This document shows positions 3-8,214 of a stretch of 64,000 bases of DNA, piece by piece. Numbering within the stretch: the stretch's first letter is position 1; each line of letters opens with the position of its first letter. The stretch lies in assembly GCF_018127965.1 (NCBI RefSeq), contig NZ_CP072350.1, positions 434,001 to 498,000 of the forward strand. The letters run 5' to 3'. The translations under genes were made by a program, and so were the position numbers. Source of the stretch: Prevotella melaninogenica. GTDB lineage: Bacteria > Bacteroidota > Bacteroidia > Bacteroidales > Bacteroidaceae. The notes under the pieces were generated by a model that was not told the origin of the DNA, ran no database searches, and saw nothing but the letters and a program-made list of their open reading frames with translations.

Positions 3-302
3 TGGTTCCTTGAAACACTCCGTAAGGCTTTAGATACTGCACTTGAAAAGACGGAAGGCATCATCAGAAAGGTGCGCTTTTGGGATGAGCATAAGGACCT
101 TCAACTAAACGACCGACAAAGAAAGGTGCTCAACATGCTCCTCGATGGTTTTGAAGGAAAGCTGACTTCCTCTAAGTGGTACAAGATAAATCACTGTTCA
201 CAAGATACCGCAACTCGTGACCTCAACGACCTTGTCAAAAAGAATATATTGAAGAAAAGTAGTGAGGGAGGACGTAGCACCGCCTATGAAATGCTGATAT
301 AA
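3..302 (+). CDS. Fic-family protein, C-terminal fragment (5' end outside window)
   Basis: The frame is open from the first bases of the window to TAA at 300-302, so only the last 99 codons are present. The fragment starts WFLETLRKALDTALEKT and continues into a winged-helix-like end (LNDRQRKVLNMLLDGFEGKL ... TATRDLNDLVKKNILKK). In Fic/DOC proteins of Bacteroidota this arrangement follows the catalytic HPFxxGNGR region: a helical linker, then a helix-turn-helix domain. The Fic catalytic motif itself lies upstream and is not visible, so AMPylation activity cannot be judged. A GTG at 72 could start a 76-codon product, but the frame continues upstream with good coding character, so I treat it as the tail of a longer gene. 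It is followed by a GC-rich hairpin repeat. Confidence 0.6.
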   Translation, partial: WFLETLRKALDTALEKTEGIIRKVRFWDEHKDLQLNDRQRKVLNMLLDGFEGKLTSSKWYKINHCSQDTATRDLNDLVKKNILKKSSEGGRSTAYEMLI

Positions 303-445: not shown

Positions 446-2107
446 TTATACTTTAACTCTTGTGTTCGTTATAGTTTTGTCAAAAGCAGTAAACTTCATA
501 ATTAATCCCTCCTTTTGTAAGGTGCCTATTATTTTGCTTGTTGGAGAATTTATAGTTGATGATGTCAATGCTTTTATAATAGTAAAGGTCTTCTTATCTG
601 ATTCTTTATTTACTATGATCATTCCCCCTGGCAAAGTATTTGTTTTTACAAGAAACATGCGATTTTTGCTACGCACATTGATTATATGGAAGCCATCCTC
701 GGTTTCTTCTATCATGTATTTACCTGAACAGAAAGGCTTGCTCAATATAGAAAACTGATGCTTGGTAATGAGCTCATTCTCTTCTGATTGGAATGACTCT
801 ATTGAGTTACATGAATCTGTGGTTGATGAAGGGTTTAGGGGTATGGGGATATCTTGAATAAGAATCATATCCTCTTTCCCTTCGCTCATATCTACTTCAA
901 CATAATCATGTATACTTTGTGTTTGCCTCAAAGTACTCCTTTGAACATTGATGTTTTTTTCTTCTCCGTAAAAGTATGACTCCCAATCTCGGTCTTCATC
1001 AGGTAGTCCAAATTGAGAGTACATACCGACATTGTCCAATATAATACACTGTTTGTTTCCATTCTTACGCAAACCTCTTCCAACCTGTTGTATATACTTA
1101 ACTAAAGACTTTGTTGGTCTTGCCAATTGTATGAACTCTATATCTGGACAATCAAAACCTTCCGAAAATATGTCTACGTTAACAATGATATCAATGTCAC
1201 CATTCTTAAAAGCTTGGATTATATTATAACGGTGTTGTGGTGGAGTTTTACTATCTATTTTCTCGATTTTTACACCATGGGCTCTGTATTGTTCACAAAT
1301 ATGTTCGCTATGTGAGCGGGAGATACTATAGATTATACCTTTTTTACCAAATGCATTTTTTTTATAGCTATCATACAGTTGGGCACGAATCTTAGAAGTA
1401 TCTATAACATCTATAAGTGCTTTTGTCTTATAGTCTCCATCAATATCAAACTCTCTAATGGTATTAATTGATTCAATAACTTTAGAATTTATAGGGATAG
1501 AGTAGTACTGATATGATGCAAGCCATCCTTTTTTTATAAAATCCTTGATAGGCATAGAAGGGATATATGCATCAAATAGGCTTGAGAAGCCGCAGTTATT
1601 CATTCTCCATGGAGAAGCCGTTACACCGAGTTTCTTTGCGTCGGGACAGAAGTGCCAAAGTTTCTTATATGAGTGTGCAATGGCGTGGTGTGCCTCATCA
1701 ATGATTATAAAATTAAAGCTTAAATCATTAATAAGACTCCTGTTAGAAGCGTGTGTTATTGTTTGTATGGATGCAACCTGTATGGGTTTTGTTGGGTCAC
1801 GCATCTCTTTCATAGTTCCAGCTAATACTCCATGGTCGATTCTGTATTTCGATAGACTATTAGAGCATTGTTCTATAAGTTCGCTTCTATGAGCTATTAT
1901 GAGTATACGGAAAAAGATATTATGACGAAGTCCCCATACATTGATGTCTCGAATGATGGACGTAAATAAACGAGTTTTACCTGTACCAGTAGGCATCTGG
2001 TACAAAATGTTGTTAGCAATATTCCATCGGCTAAAGATTTCTTCTTTAGCTTTTAGCTGGTAATCACGTAATGTGATGTCTTGCTGATAAAACTCCTTAT
2101 AATCCAT
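446..2107 (-). CDS. SF2 DEAH-box helicase, restriction-type
   Basis: About 553 aa from the preferred ATG at 2105-2107 (MDYKEFYQQD). That start lies one base after the stop of the upstream gene and is preceded by GAGGT at ribosome-binding distance; the longer frame starting at 2149 overlaps its neighbour. Superfamily II motifs are clear: a Q-motif-like LRDYQ, Walker A MPTGTGKT, motif II DEAH in IIIDEAHHA, motif III TASPWR, and motif VI QQVGRGLRKNG. This is the UvrB/ResIII-type fold found in type I/III restriction subunits and stand-alone defence helicases. The C-terminal 150 residues match nothing I recognise. It is last in the operon with the DGQHR/nuclease protein and the adenine methylase, so it probably supplies ATP-driven translocation or strand opening for that system. 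The product is probably cytosolic. Confidence 0.85.
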   Translation of the reverse strand: MDYKEFYQQDITLRDYQLKAKEEIFSRWNIANNILYQMPTGTGKTRLFTSIIRDINVWGLRHNIFFRILIIAHRSELIEQCSNSLSKYRIDHGVLAGTMKEMRDPTKPIQVASIQTITHASNRSLINDLSFNFIIIDEAHHAIAHSYKKLWHFCPDAKKLGVTASPWRMNNCGFSSLFDAYIPSMPIKDFIKKGWLASYQYYSIPINSKVIESINTIREFDIDGDYKTKALIDVIDTSKIRAQLYDSYKKNAFGKKGIIYSISRSHSEHICEQYRAHGVKIEKIDSKTPPQHRYNIIQAFKNGDIDIIVNVDIFSEGFDCPDIEFIQLARPTKSLVKYIQQVGRGLRKNGNKQCIILDNVGMYSQFGLPDEDRDWESYFYGEEKNINVQRSTLRQTQSIHDYVEVDMSEGKEDMILIQDIPIPLNPSSTTDSCNSIESFQSEENELITKHQFSILSKPFCSGKYMIEETEDGFHIINVRSKNRMFLVKTNTLPGGMIIVNKESDKKTFTIIKALTSSTINSPTSKIIGTLQKEGLIMKFTAFDKTITNTRVKV

Positions 2108-2108
2108 G

Positions 2109-4439
2109 TTATACCTCGTCTGCAGGGGCAAGTGATTGTAGAATAACACTCATCTCATCAATCTCGACTCGATTTAGAGCACGACCTTTGATTGTAGTCC
2201 AAGACTTACTAAAAGAAATAAGGTCGTTTAACCATTTTATCTTATCTGACTTTGTCCTAAAAGAGTCTGTTACTTTAATGGAGAACTCCTGTTCAAATGT
2301 CTTAAAATTCTCATCATTCTCTTTTTGGGTATGCCATTTATTATCAATGATTTCCTTGAGGTCTTGCATGTTCAAATACTCAGTCCATTCTTGATCTTCG
2401 TCTTCACTATCATTCATTCGCATAAAGCATTTCCCTTTTATGGATTTTATCTGACTTTCCCATGTACTTCCATATAAATCTTCCAATTTCAACAATACTT
2501 TATTTTTTATCAGTTTTTCTATAGCTTTGCCATATGATTTACCTTGCTCTTGAAGGTCTTTGTCCTGCGTTTCAATCCATTCTGTCAAACCTTCAGGATT
2601 ATAAGAGGATATCTTTTGGCGAATTGCATTTTGATATTTTCTGAGCCAGAAAGTGTCTGCTCCTGCTCCCTTTATGAGTAAAATCTGGCTCTTGTCATCC
2701 GCTGGTATATTGCATATATAGTCTATTAAGGCATCAAAATAGGGAGCCATCTTCTCTTTCTGCTCCTTCGTGCTTGAATTTTGAGTAAGAGCATGTTGAT
2801 GAATGAGGTGTTCATTAAATGAAGATATAAGGGATATGAATGCATACGTACCTCGGTTACATTCTATAAACTGCTCATACTCTTCAGAATACTCTTCATT
2901 CATTTTGTAGTAGACATAGGCATAGCACTCCTTAATGAGATTTGATATGCGTTTTTGAGAATCGTTCATAGCTTTATTATGCTCTATGCACTTTGTGTTA
3001 TAGAGACAAACATCGGTATGTTTGGTAAACTCTTTTGATGTTGCTTTGGGAAGTAGAGATGACTGTGATAATGCAGTGTCAAAGGGCTTGAAAGTAAGCT
3101 TAGCAGTATCCTCACCAATAGAAATTTTTCTTGTTAAAACGCTATTATTTCCTGTAGCTAATTGTTTGATAATAGATGAGCGTAAGGCTTTGAGTCTGGA
3201 GTCAAGACGTGGAGAGTTCCAGTTTAAGTCCTCATTTAAGTCAAGGCGTAAGCCTGGGCTTACAGCTTTCTGGTGCTCATTGATATCCATAAAAATTTTC
3301 AACTGCTCATCAGATGGTAAGCCATTAAAAGCTACTACGGGTATTGTATTTGTGTCTTTATACTTTGAGCCTGCATAGCCATAAACGCGATGCTGTCCGT
3401 CTATAATATATGCAATACAATATGCATTTGGAATAGTAAGGTATCCCAATTTTGTTTTTGTGTTATCACTTCCTCCAGCAGCTTGTTCAAACTGTACTCT
3501 GTTCTTCTTATTTGAATCGTCAAAATTAACGATAACTGTGTTTGGGAAATATCCTCCTTTATCTATAAACTCACCAATTCCTTTGAGTCTTGAAGGGACG
3601 AGTAGTCGTTGGTACGTAGGCATTGAGATCTGAGTGTTTACTTTTGTTCGATGTAGTACGAATCCAATTTTGAGCAATTTAGCAGGCTCTATAGATAGCA
3701 TAAAGTATTCGTGTCCTCCCATACTACCTCGAAGCGCAGGGATGCGAATTTTCTCATTGTTTATTCTTTCATGCTGAAACATGAGTCCATAGAACTGATA
3801 TATTACAGTGGATTTGTAGGACTTGATCAAACTGTTCACATAGTCATATGTGTTATCTGTAAACTGAAATATCTTATTATCAATCAAGCGTCTTTCATCG
3901 TAGCAATCTTCAGGATATGTATAGTTTCTTGTAGCGAAGATAAACTTCACCTTTTTCTCTTGCCCATAGATTTCTTTTAAAACACGCATTACCCCTTCTT
4001 TGTAAAGGCATATTTCTCCTATTTCCTTTTTGAAAGAAGCTTGTTTTATGTTTTCAGTAGCTTTGCATTCTACAACGAAAATGGCTTCTTCACCAACTGC
4101 TACGATATCAATTTGATGTCTATCTTCTGAATTTTTGCCCCATGGGATGACCAAATTTTCGTCATAATTCAATATTCTGAAGCCGAGGTTATAGAACATA
4201 CACCAGATATCATCTTCAAAACGGATGTCTATAGGTTTAAGTTTTTGAATCTTTGCTTTGTGTTTAGAAGTAGAAACCTCTTCCCAACCTTCACTAAGAT
4301 AGCCTTCTAATTCATTCAAAGAAATACTTCTTGTTTCATAAGGAGTTTTCTTTGCCTTGAACTTCTTTGTAAGAACAGAGGGATCATCTGTCATATGTTC
4401 TTTTATACTCTGGATTTGAGTTGGTGTTAATAGTGCCAT
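2109..4439 (-). CDS. Nuclease-DGQHR fusion protein
   Basis: 776 aa, probably cytosolic. Residues about 70-170 look like a restriction-endonuclease fold: D111 in HQIDIVAVG and E124-x-K126 in FVVECKAT fit the PD-(D/E)xK pattern. Residues about 240-480 hold a DGQHR domain, with the name motif at 347-351 (YIIDGQHRVYGYAG) followed by IPVVAFNGL and FMDINEHQKAVSPG. DGQHR proteins belong to the ParB/DndB-like group; DndB belongs to the phosphorothioate modification locus. The C-terminal 300 residues are mostly helical and unrecognised. It lies 14 bases after the adenine methylase stop and one base before the helicase start, so the three genes are almost certainly one transcript. My inference is that it is the effector or specificity subunit of a modification-dependent defence system. 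Fusion of nuclease and DGQHR in one chain is the unusual point. It is AT-rich compared with housekeeping genes in the window. Confidence 0.8.
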   Translation of the reverse strand: MALLTPTQIQSIKEHMTDDPSVLTKKFKAKKTPYETRSISLNELEGYLSEGWEEVSTSKHKAKIQKLKPIDIRFEDDIWCMFYNLGFRILNYDENLVIPWGKNSEDRHQIDIVAVGEEAIFVVECKATENIKQASFKKEIGEICLYKEGVMRVLKEIYGQEKKVKFIFATRNYTYPEDCYDERRLIDNKIFQFTDNTYDYVNSLIKSYKSTVIYQFYGLMFQHERINNEKIRIPALRGSMGGHEYFMLSIEPAKLLKIGFVLHRTKVNTQISMPTYQRLLVPSRLKGIGEFIDKGGYFPNTVIVNFDDSNKKNRVQFEQAAGGSDNTKTKLGYLTIPNAYCIAYIIDGQHRVYGYAGSKYKDTNTIPVVAFNGLPSDEQLKIFMDINEHQKAVSPGLRLDLNEDLNWNSPRLDSRLKALRSSIIKQLATGNNSVLTRKISIGEDTAKLTFKPFDTALSQSSLLPKATSKEFTKHTDVCLYNTKCIEHNKAMNDSQKRISNLIKECYAYVYYKMNEEYSEEYEQFIECNRGTYAFISLISSFNEHLIHQHALTQNSSTKEQKEKMAPYFDALIDYICNIPADDKSQILLIKGAGADTFWLRKYQNAIRQKISSYNPEGLTEWIETQDKDLQEQGKSYGKAIEKLIKNKVLLKLEDLYGSTWESQIKSIKGKCFMRMNDSEDEDQEWTEYLNMQDLKEIIDNKWHTQKENDENFKTFEQEFSIKVTDSFRTKSDKIKWLNDLISFSKSWTTIKGRALNRVEIDEMSVILQSLAPADEV

Positions 4440-4453
4440 ATTTATATACTTAT

Positions 4454-5380
4454 TTATTGTCCGTTGTTATAGTTCTTTATAAGTAACTCTATTTCTTTTT
4501 TTCTTTTGCCTACATGAGCATTTATGTATCTGTGAGCTTCTATCTGAGTTATATGATATCCCTGATAGAGTTTTGTAAAATAAGATTCTCCATGACTATC
4601 CATAGAGTTTGAGTTACTCTGCATTATTTTACATCCTCTATCTGTCATTATATCACAGAATTCTTTTAATCTTTCCTGCTCTTTGTCATCAAATATGTTA
4701 TGAGAATACTCTTTAAAGTGAGCTGTTCCCGATAGTGGGCGATACGGTGGATCTATATAAATGTAATTATAGTTTTGTCCCAAGTGTTTCGTAATATTAC
4801 TATAGTCCCCAGTATAGATTTCAACCTTTTCAAGCAGTTTATGGTCAGCCAATATAAGTTTCTCATCACATATTGTAGGATTCTTGTATTTACCAAATGG
4901 AACGTTAAACTTTCCACTGGTATTAACTCTATATAAACCATTAAAGCAGGTCTTATTTAGGAATAAAAAAAATGCAGCTTTTTCTTTATCTATTATTTCC
5001 TTGTTATTGTAATCATCACGTACCTTATAGTAATAGCGTGACTTCTCATCCATATTTGGTAACTGCAAATATTCTTTTTCTATCAGCTTCAGTTGTTTAA
5101 TAAGAGTTTGAGGATTGTTCTTTATGAGGTTGTAGCAGAAAATCAAATCTTTATTTACATCGTTGATAACAACTCTGTGTATATTAGTAAAATGCGTAAG
5201 CATATAAAATAACATTGCACCGCCACCAACAAAAGGCTCAATATATGTAATACTATCTTGATTACAGAAATCATCAGGTAAATGAGTCGAAAGGAGTTTC
5301 ACAAGTGAACCTTTCCCTCCAGCCCATTTTACAAATGGTTTTGCAACTTTTATTGTTTTCGGCTCATCTTTTATTGCCAT
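4454..5380 (-). CDS. D12-class DNA adenine N6-methyltransferase (Dam-like)
   Basis: 308 aa. Motif I is FVKWAGGKGSLVKLL near the N terminus (AdoMet binding) and the catalytic motif IV is YIDPPYRPL. This order (motif I, target recognition, DPPY) is that of the D12/alpha group, which transfers a methyl group from AdoMet to adenine N6. Family length is 260-310 aa, so it looks intact. It starts at ATG 5378-5380 and is the first complete gene of the operon, ahead of the nuclease-DGQHR protein and the helicase. A promoter of Bacteroidota form lies at 5642-5649. Methylation probably marks self DNA for the downstream nuclease. The recognised sequence cannot be read from the protein. Confidence 0.9.
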   Translation of the reverse strand: MAIKDEPKTIKVAKPFVKWAGGKGSLVKLLSTHLPDDFCNQDSITYIEPFVGGGAMLFYMLTHFTNIHRVVINDVNKDLIFCYNLIKNNPQTLIKQLKLIEKEYLQLPNMDEKSRYYYKVRDDYNNKEIIDKEKAAFFLFLNKTCFNGLYRVNTSGKFNVPFGKYKNPTICDEKLILADHKLLEKVEIYTGDYSNITKHLGQNYNYIYIDPPYRPLSGTAHFKEYSHNIFDDKEQERLKEFCDIMTDRGCKIMQSNSNSMDSHGESYFTKLYQGYHITQIEAHRYINAHVGKRKKEIELLIKNYNNGQ

Positions 5381-6394: not shown

Positions 6395-6745
6395 GAAAGT
6401 TGACGAGTTGACAAGTTAGACGAGTAAACAAGTTGCTTGTGAAGAGAGACAGAGTAATAAGGTTAACAAGTAGATAGGTTAACAAGCAACTTGTTAACTC
6501 GTCTACTTGTCAACTCGTCCACTTCAAAGTGAGACATGGTAACATGAGAACAAATTTCTTCTTTATTACAAGTAACTTGTCAACTCGTCAACTTCAAAGT
6601 GAGACAAAGTAACATAAGAACAAGTTTTCCTTTATAGGAAGCCACTCGTCCACTTGTTACTCGAAAGAACTTTGTTCTCCTGTTACTTTGTCTTCAATTA
6701 TCCTGTCTACAATCAACTTGTTTACTTGTTCACATGTCTAACTTG
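6395..6745. repeat. Degenerate ACAAGT / GACGAGT repeat tract
   Basis: Alternating words such as ACAAGT, AGACGAGT and GTTAACAAG with their complements fill this stretch. A 70-bp direct repeat is nested inside (ACTTCAAAGTGAGACA at 6521 and 6591). Similar tracts lie at 12240-12365, 16620-16720, 28790-28990 and 30886-31110. Confidence 0.7.
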
Positions 6746-6757
6746 TCTACTTACAAC

Positions 6758-6794
6758 AAAACCGTGCAAAGGTCTTTGTGGACCTTGGCACGGT
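6758..6794 (-). terminator. Rho-independent terminator of rubrerythrin gene
   Basis: On the minus strand ACCGTGC and GCACGGT pair, with an inner AAGGTC/GACCTT stem, followed by TTTTGTTG. It lies 37 bases downstream of the rbr stop. Confidence 0.85.
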
Positions 6795-6830
6795 ATGTGA
6801 CTAACGCTATGGAATTATTATTGCGTCGAT

Positions 6831-7484
6831 TTAGTAGTTTGACTCCTCAACCTGGAAGAAGCTCTGTGGGTGGTTACATACAGGGCAAACAGCTGGAGCC
6901 TTCTTGCCGATAACGATGTGACCACAGTTGCGGCACTGCCAGATGCAGTCGCCCTCACGAGAGAATACTACGCTATCCTCGATGTTCTTCAAGAGCTTGC
7001 GGTAACGCTCCTCGTGGTGCTTCTCAACCTTACCAACGCTGCGGAACTTAACTGCCAACTCAGGGAAGCCTTCTTCCATAGCATCCTTTGCCATCTGCTC
7101 GTACATATCGGTCCACTCGTAGTTCTCACCAGCTGCTGCGTCAGCGAGATTCTGAGTTGTTGTTGGGATATCACCCTCATGGAGGAACTTGAACCAAATC
7201 TTAGCATGCTCTTTCTCGTTGCGTGCTGTCTCCTCGAAGAAACCTGCAATCTGCTCATAGCCGTCCTTCTTAGCTTTTGAAGCATAGTAGAGATACTTAG
7301 TGTGTGCCTGGCTCTCACCAGCGAAAGCGTCCTTAAGGTTCTGCTCAGTCTTAGTACCCTTCAAAGCCTCTGGGTTGAACTCCTTGAACTTCTCAGCCTT
7401 AGCGTGACATACTGGGCATTCTGCTGGAGCCTCTGTTCCCTCGTGGATGTAACCACAAACGGTGCAAATAAATTTCTTTTTCAT
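6831..7484 (-). CDS. rbr: Rubrerythrin with two rubredoxin-like domains
   Basis: 217 aa, cytosolic. Rubrerythrin is a diiron NADH-peroxidase-type protein that removes hydrogen peroxide in anaerobes. Residues 1-40 carry one rubredoxin-like iron knuckle pair ([10 protein letters not shown] ... CPVCHA). The central four-helix ferritin-like domain shows the diiron ligand pattern ([49 protein letters not shown]). The C terminus carries a second rubredoxin site (CRNCGHI ... CPVCNH). Classic rubrerythrin is about 190 aa with only the C-terminal rubredoxin, so the extra N-terminal metal site is notable. ATG at 7482-7484; monocistronic, with its own promoter (7629-7636) and terminator (6758-6794). Confidence 0.95.
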
Positions 7485-7628
7485 AATGTTCTTGTATTTG
7501 TATAATGTTCTTGTATTATAATAATAAAATGTGTTCGAATTACGAATGCTATCGCTTTAATATCCACTGATAGTCAGTTGGATATCTATTGTGTTCTTGC
7601 TCTGTAATTATTACAATCTTTCTGGGTG

Positions 7629-7659
7629 CAAAGGTATTAATTATTTCCGAGTCTGTCAA
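7629..7659 (-). promoter_or_regulatory. Promoter of rbr
   Basis: On the minus strand TACCTTTG (7629-7636) is preceded, 18-19 bases upstream, by TTGAC (7655-7659): the -7/-33 arrangement of Bacteroidota. The implied 5' leader is about 135 nt and contains a direct repeat of TACAAGAACATTAT just before the ATG. Confidence 0.6.
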
Positions 7660-7800
7660 CTTTAATTGCTCTTTTTTTATACCAAACGACCTATTTAGAC
7701 AACGAATAATTAATGAATGAATAGTAATAACAGAGCGCATAAAAAGCTAAAAACCTCTGTGTCTCAAGTTCCAAATAGGATGTTTCAAACCCCAAGTTAA

Positions 7801-7975
7801 CTACGAATTACGCGAATGGCACGAAGACAGAATGACATAGTGACATATACTTCAATGACATATTTTAGAATGAAGACAGAATCGACAAGACTGCGAATTA
7901 CGCGAATGACACGAATCATTATCGCAAACATTATTCGAGAAATTCGTGCAATTCGTAGTTCTAATCATAAAGTTC
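7801..7975. repeat. Inverted-repeat element (GAATTACGCGAA family), copy 1
   Basis: An arm containing CGAATTACGCGAATGACACG (7893-7912) faces an imperfect complement, AATTCGTGCAATTCGTAG (about 7941-7958). The fixed tail GTTCTAATCATAAAGTTC follows. A half-arm also occurs at 7801. The same structure and tail recur at 17530-17630. Confidence 0.65.
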
Positions 7976-8007
7976 AAAGCTCAATGTTCAAAGTTCAAAG
8001 GTAAAAG

Positions 8008-8160
8008 AGTTCATATCATAAAGTTCAAAGTTCAAATCTCAAAGTTCAAAGGTAAAAGAGTTCATATCATAAAGTTCAAAGTTCAAATCTCAAAGTTCAA
8101 AGGTAAAAGAGTTCATATCATAAAGTTCAAAGTTCAAATCTCAAAGTTCAAAGGTAAAAG
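8008..8160. repeat. 51-bp tandem repeat, 3 units
   Basis: The unit starting AGTTCATATCATAAAGTTC begins at 8008, 8059 and 8110 and breaks off at 8161; successive units are essentially identical. The 51-bp period is a multiple of three, so it creates a repetitive open frame (7946-8191) that I do not consider a gene. Confidence 0.9.
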
Positions 8161-8214
8161 AGTTCAATGTTCAAAGTATAGACGTTTTTAGTTAAAAAAT
8201 TCTTAGTTAAATAA

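Follow-up and report, generated by a model that had tools for sequence, protein, structure and literature searches.

The first 5.4 kb of the 64,000-nucleotide stretch of Prevotella melaninogenica DNA analysed here (the window) encode a methylase and a putative nuclease whose pairing suggests an as yet unnamed restriction-modification system, with a DNA cutter that is driven by a switch and perhaps controlled by a methyl mark. The conserved core is a two-gene pair, consisting of a D12-class adenine methylase (M) and a large nuclease-DGQHR protein (D), since a D12 gene adjoins D in nearly all informative loci whereas the SF2 helicase gene that follows in the window (H) accompanies D in only about a quarter of the loci. 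The helicase is thus an add-on to the pair.

Organization of the operon

The preliminary description of this DNA, made from the letters alone, had listed three genes with intervals of 14 and 1 bases, and the ORF coordinates agree with it; M, D, and H follow one another on the minus strand (Table 1). An alternative GTG start at 2149 would make H overlap D. The operon is AT-rich, with a GC content of 0.349 against 0.430 in the remainder of the window. A profile search of the whole genome found a single D12 gene and a single DndB-family gene. Immediately downstream of the operon (window 3-302) lies the gene of a Fic family protein with DUF4172, and the same arrangement is seen at L133:17196-18302.

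The assignment of M as a DPPY-bearing D12 methylase holds over the whole protein, which scores 274.8 bits against TIGR00571 (dam; curated cut-off 114.85) and reaches an E-value of 3.3e-59 against the Pfam D12 family (PF02086). Its closest solved structure is DpnM (2dpm), followed by E. coli Dam, and it shares 46% identity with the methylase from the DpnII cassette in locus L065. The third gene is an SF2 helicase as described, passing both the ResIII and the Helicase_C models of Pfam. Its best NCBIfam match is RadD (NF053632), far under the cut-off (130.9 vs 720), and its best PDB match is 7clg, which we take to be SauUSI; RadD was also matched.

Table 1. Features of the M-D-H operon in window coordinates.
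Feature	Position	Strand	Evidence
M: 308-aa N6-adenine DNA methylase of the D12 class (Dam/DpnM type) with a DPPY motif	4454..5380	-	TIGR00571, PF02086
D: 776-aa nuclease-ParB/DGQHR-helical protein, proposed restriction effector	2109..4439	-	TIGR03187, PF14072, AlphaFold pLDDT 88.3
D residues 70-222: PD-(D/E)xK nuclease domain	3774..4232	-	AlphaFold model, structural matches
D residues 111-126: predicted active-site motif D111, E124-C125-K126	4062..4109	-	row conservation
D residues 231-392: ParB/sulfiredoxin-fold NTP-switch (DGQHR) domain	3264..3749	-	AlphaFold model, structural matches
D residues 347-351: DGQHR motif	3387..3401	-	92/92 rows, partly by selection
D residues 395-776: helical C-terminal domain that may bind DNA or a partner	2112..3257	-	pLDDT 95.1 folded alone
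H: RadD-like SF2 helicase, 553 aa from ATG, lineage-specific add-on	446..2107	-	ResIII, Helicase_C

Domains and active-site residues of the D protein

D passes TIGR03187 (DGQHR; 114.2 bits, cut-off 58.85) as well as the Pfam DndB family (PF14072; 56.3, cut-off 29.1), and its AlphaFold model consists of a PD-(D/E)xK fold, a ParB-type NTP-switch fold carrying the DGQHR motif, and a helical C-terminus. The fusion of a nuclease with a DGQHR domain in one chain, previously read from the sequence, is therefore borne out, and structure prediction gives the N-terminal region a nuclease fold and the DGQHR region an NTP-switch fold, both with structural matches. At E-values up to 1, the Pfam matches of D are DndB, NERD, Hjc, and WipA_N, the N-terminal NERD match being under its gathering score (20.8 vs 22.1), and none is to DUF262, DUF1524, or HNH. 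The DndB and DpdB models reach only the middle of the protein (residues 229-441), PADLOC recognising no more than this DpdB-like part, and two further D proteins compared with PADLOC matched DpdB and DndB only.

The proposed D..ExK motif is present, with D111 kept in 91, E124 in 88, and K126 in 85 of the 92 rows of the D alignment. E75, in the first helix of the nuclease domain, is kept in 88/92 rows. Parts of the ExK motif are lost in L046, L072, and L088, and the lysine is replaced by R or T in L002, L003, L047, and L075. The cysteine between the catalytic E and K (C125, window 4065-4067) occurs in 91/92 rows, which is above the E or the K themselves. In the switch domain, Q277-R278, the DGQHR motif, F383, and N387 are found in every one of the 92 rows, the conservation of DGQHR being partly selected because IDGQHR was among the patterns used to fetch the loci. 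The DGQHR of D probably occupies the position that the GERR box has in ParB proteins. The family motif list given in the accessible text of PMC4619093 is QR, DGQHR, and FxxxN.

For the helical C-terminal domain, a PDB comparison returned no convincing match. A 217-aa protein from a Phyllobacterium plasmid (L004:6998-7651), whose gene precedes that of a KAP family NTPase, matches D only over C-terminal residues 571-771, and this domain may be a separate module.

Pairing of methylase and nuclease across relatives

A scan of named genomes with the D alignment yielded 430 relatives, and the loci of the best 80, which are not a random sample, were fetched with patterns that included IDGQHR among others. 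With an ORF caller and profile models, 68 of these 80 loci were seen to have M upstream of D and in the same orientation. On recheck, M turned out to be present but missed in L076 and L083, to lie upstream of D on the opposite strand in L078, and to accompany a D split by an insertion element in L082, while L085 and L086 have a divergent D12 gene adjoining D. In the Sulfurovum genome of L082, the pieces that break D (6782-7983) are of an ISAZ013-type transposase. Four loci (L041, L050, L051, and L060) end too near D, leaving 76 of the 80 informative, and 74 of these 76, across several phyla, have a D12 methylase as the neighbour of D. The only two without such a neighbour, L040 and L059, come from genomes that carry a D12 gene elsewhere, against a background of 4 in 14 control genomes. 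Among the 998 other ORFs in the loci of the best 80, there are 71 matches to M, and 70 of them stand at position -1 or -2 of D. Six long viral-contig relatives (L090-L095, out of 40 viral loci) also have a D12 gene nearby.

The distribution of D is patchy: it occurs in 6 of 149 relatives and in 3 of 395 genomes of the phylum, the genome studied here being counted in both. None of the six proteins flanking the window's locus was found beside D in seven other loci. Co-occurrence with defence islands, suggested earlier as a check, did not emerge: the neighbour scan gave no clear island.

Pairwise distances of M and D are correlated over 67 non-redundant rows (Spearman 0.33), and also within the DpnM-like methylase class (0.645, 25 rows) and within the second class (0.335, 42 rows); each value is above all of 2000 permutations. 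Plain shared descent can yield correlated trees as well and could contribute here. The methylase tree has 32 rows in the DpnM-like class and 43 in the second (L048, L078, and L094 were left out), and mapping the class label onto the D tree requires a minimum of three switches. Such switches need either a shared site or an altered specificity of D. Our reading is that the pair travels together, with few methylase exchanges.

These results bear on the idea that D is a type IV-like enzyme directed against modified phage DNA, with M kept for some other purpose, such as protection against DpnII-like enzymes or host marking. GmrSD-type enzymes, which have a ParB-like switch, are indeed type IV according to the available parts of PMC4619093 and PMC12373910. 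A type IV enzyme needs no methylase, however, so that neither the near-constant pairing in the informative loci nor the correlated trees would be expected, and we consider this account distinctly unlikely.

In L006 (3767-4213) and 13 other loci, identical-D duplicates included, a 148-aa DUF7226 gene lies between M and D. Part of its product aligns with one segment of a type II endonuclease model in PADLOC.

The helicase is restricted to one clade

H follows D in 21 of the 80 loci (the best 80 of 430). When 92 rows of D were arranged in a quick tree, the 26 H-bearing loci all fell within one Bacteroidales-centred clade of 31 rows, and no H was found outside it. Within that clade, H is present in 26 of 31 rows, and collapsing four pairs of rows that have the same D gives 22 of 27; it was not found in L016, L018, and L019 although downstream DNA is present, and L021 ends too soon downstream of D to be scored. 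G016, at 86% identity the closest relative whose context is known, keeps open frames for M and D, and its H is reduced to frame-shifted pieces.

The three genes had earlier been treated as a unit, and this does not survive the comparison: their co-occurrence is common in the Bacteroidales-centred clade and rare over the fetched loci as a whole. The tight spacing in the window and the high frequency of H in the window's clade are what one would expect if the helicase were obligatory, as in type I or III enzymes. Its absence outside the clade and from three clade loci, together with its decay next to an open M and D, makes such a three-gene system highly improbable. What stands of the candidate modification and defence system is thus a narrower, two-gene form made of M and D, and not the set that includes the helicase.

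The DpnII connection and a possible recognition site

Among the loci clustered, a DpnII-family endonuclease gene directly precedes D in five (L059, L065, L069, L070, and L089), all Pfam-checked, and in the last four the order is M, DpnII, D. By similarity grouping, a PF01555 N6/N4 methylase gene, presumably DpnA-like, is found near D in ten loci; seven of these were Pfam-checked. Because DpnII directly precedes D in those five loci, the gene order suggests a GATC-type site for the window's subclade. The genome studied here gave no match to DpnII (PF04556) in a search that was positive in 1 of 14 control genomes, and it carries two PF01555 genes, both located on its other contig. It looks as if, in the window's lineage, D (with H) had taken the place of a former DpnII. 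GATC occurs 58 times in the window against 214 expected, and it is also depleted in relatives without D; the counts are uninformative. CTAG, GGCC, and GATC are depleted to varying degrees in the window (1-64000) and in the same-genus stretches among L137-L156, with and without D.

A proposed model of methylation-gated restriction

We propose, with moderate confidence, that M marks the host DNA and that the ParB-fold NTP switch gates the nuclease of D according to adenine methylation. In the DpnM-type subclade, which includes the window, M would methylate the host adenine at GATC or a GATC-like site. D would be the restriction enzyme of the pair and would depend on an NTP, its helical C-terminal part and its ParB domain reading the site, its DGQHR domain binding and hydrolysing NTP as a switch, and its N-terminal PD-(D/E)xK domain cutting or nicking. 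On a methylated self site, D would be driven off or brought into a harmless NTP-hydrolysing state, while on an unmethylated foreign site the nuclease would fire, presumably in defence against phages. Where it is present, H may help to process the cut DNA or track along it, and would be dispensable. The computation establishes the pairing of the genes, their correlated inheritance, both folds, and the conservation of the active-site residues; adenine methylation at GATC, use of NTP, cleavage, the sign of the methyl signal, and a role against phages are inferred.

The proposal of a methylation-gated, NTP-dependent enzyme is based on the analogues DndI, SspE, and LlaJI. DndI is a ParB-family NTPase-nuclease that restricts unmarked phage DNA and leaves self DNA, its ATPase being stimulated by the host phosphorothioate (PMC11662687, accessible text). 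In SspE, mark recognition, GTP hydrolysis, and cleavage are coupled (PMC13251355, accessible text). As far as the available part of PMC12707154 describes it, LlaJI is a type IV-like NTPase machine turned on unmodified sites and accompanied by methylases.

The sign of the methyl signal could also be the reverse, with the host mark activating D: marked DNA would stimulate the NTPase, the nuclease would then attack unmarked DNA, and D would be idle without M. SspE works in this way with phosphorothioate, according to PMC13251355 and PMC11662687, and its type of switch fold is also found in D. The D12 gene found elsewhere in both genomes without an adjacent one fits our main reading equally well, and the loci shared with DpnII suggest ordinary restriction logic. 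We regard this reversed control as unlikely.

D might instead belong to the modification side, regulating or assisting M in the manner of DndB or DpdB, with its nuclease preparing or proofreading sites. Its DGQHR domain is indeed nearest to these modification-side proteins (PMC10853773 and PMC12839542, accessible text). The DndB and DpdB models cover only the middle of D, however, and D has a conserved PD-(D/E)xK domain in addition. Dam-type methylases, moreover, are known to act on their own. A role as modification partner is therefore very unlikely, and gating of the D nuclease by methylation is the reading that we retain below.

Relation to known systems

DndI, SspE, GmrSD, and BrxU resemble D in joining, within one chain, a nuclease to an NTP switch of the ParB/sulfiredoxin type that bears a DGQ[H/Q]R motif, and DndI and SspE are, like D, paired with a DNA modification module. 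In these four enzymes, the nuclease is HNH and C-terminal and the family model of the switch domain is DUF262, whereas in D the nuclease is PD-(D/E)xK and N-terminal and the domain is DndB/DGQHR. The partner of D is an adenine methylase instead of the sulfur modification of DndI and SspE, and D is without a known modified-cytosine target. LlaJI, in the accessible text of PMC12707154, shares with the M-D pair the use of a type IV-like NTPase-nuclease on unmodified sites together with methylases, but consists of McrB/McrC-related proteins where the M-D system has a single ParB-fold nuclease. On our best reading, the M-D system relates to SspE, DndI, and GmrSD as LlaJI relates to McrBC.

Compared with the DpnII/MboI system (DpnM, DpnA, and DpnII), the window has a DpnM-like M, and DpnII and PF01555 genes stand near D only in some relatives. 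DndB and DpdB share the DGQHR domain (PF14072, TIGR03187) with D, without the nuclease and helical domains that D adds. H has the SF2 core in common with RadD and 7clg, but is a stand-alone gene that is absent from most of the loci of the best 80 of 430. As to the earlier remark that the locus has no dnd genes, a DndC search of the genome gave no match (five control genomes had matches under the cut-off and none above), which supports it; the DndE search was also without a match, with control genomes equally silent.

The remark that the set fits no standard system stands in so far as PADLOC has no model for D beyond its DpdB-like middle, where the similarity to DpdB of the Dpd system was seen. 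M matches the Dam-like component B of PD-Lambda-5 weakly, and component A was matched neither by D at E-values up to 0.1 nor among the 25 of 30 families listed for H. We found no published description of the M-D pair in searches confined largely to open literature outside REBASE. What appears new here is the effector architecture; restriction-modification as a kind of system is already known.

If the model is correct, a restriction-modification architecture spread over several phyla is unmodelled in PADLOC and concealed by two annotations, "Dam methylase" and "DGQHR domain-containing protein". NTP-switch control of nucleases would then extend from sulfur and modified-cytosine marks to N6-methyladenine, and DGQHR proteins outside dnd and dpd loci would gain a testable role. 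A Dam-like methylase that seems to be an orphan may then be one of the two halves of a restriction system, a point of importance for the transformation of gut Bacteroidales.

Radical-SAM plasmids and other possible marking modules

Two alphaproteobacterial plasmids go against an exclusive link with methylation. There, the neighbours of D include a short protein with DGQHR, a radical-SAM protein, HSP90-like ATPases, and a PIN-like protein, and no annotated D12 gene lies within 9 kb on each side. Because these loci have no annotated D12 nearby, methylation is not the only partner of D, which could be a reader of more than one mark or an effector with no tie to methylation. It is tempting, though we regard it only as a tentative and rather doubtful extension, to see in D the founder of a group of restriction enzymes that read DNA marks, a ParB-fold NTPase-PD-(D/E)xK protein being combined with varied marking modules: D12 methylases of two classes in most of the loci, the DpnII operon in some, and the radical-SAM/DGQHR/HSP90-like-ATPase cluster on the alphaproteobacterial plasmids. 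The radical-SAM neighbours are also a pointer to a possible new DNA modification.

A conserved trio, made of the short DGQHR protein, the radical-SAM protein, and an HSP90-like ATPase, is found on the plasmids L002, L003, L157, L158, and L159 (Novosphingobium, Agrobacterium, Mesorhizobium, Rhizobium, and Roseomonas). A PIN-like protein and a second ATPase accompany it in 4/5 stretches, and its radical-SAM gene occurs in 12 plasmid records. The companion of the trio is D in two stretches and a module of helicase and ParB-N in three; the latter three plasmids are outside the five plasmid records that hold a close relative of the plasmid D. The trio may form an unknown system of DNA modification whose effectors can be exchanged.

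Repeats elsewhere in the window

Two repeat regions lie at higher coordinates of the same window. Overlapping inverted and direct repeats on the theme ACTTGTCAACTCGTC occupy positions 6397-6752, beside a gene that we take to be rubrerythrin-like. At 7957-8211, direct repeats that recur about every 51 bases form an array before a 1300-aa ORF.
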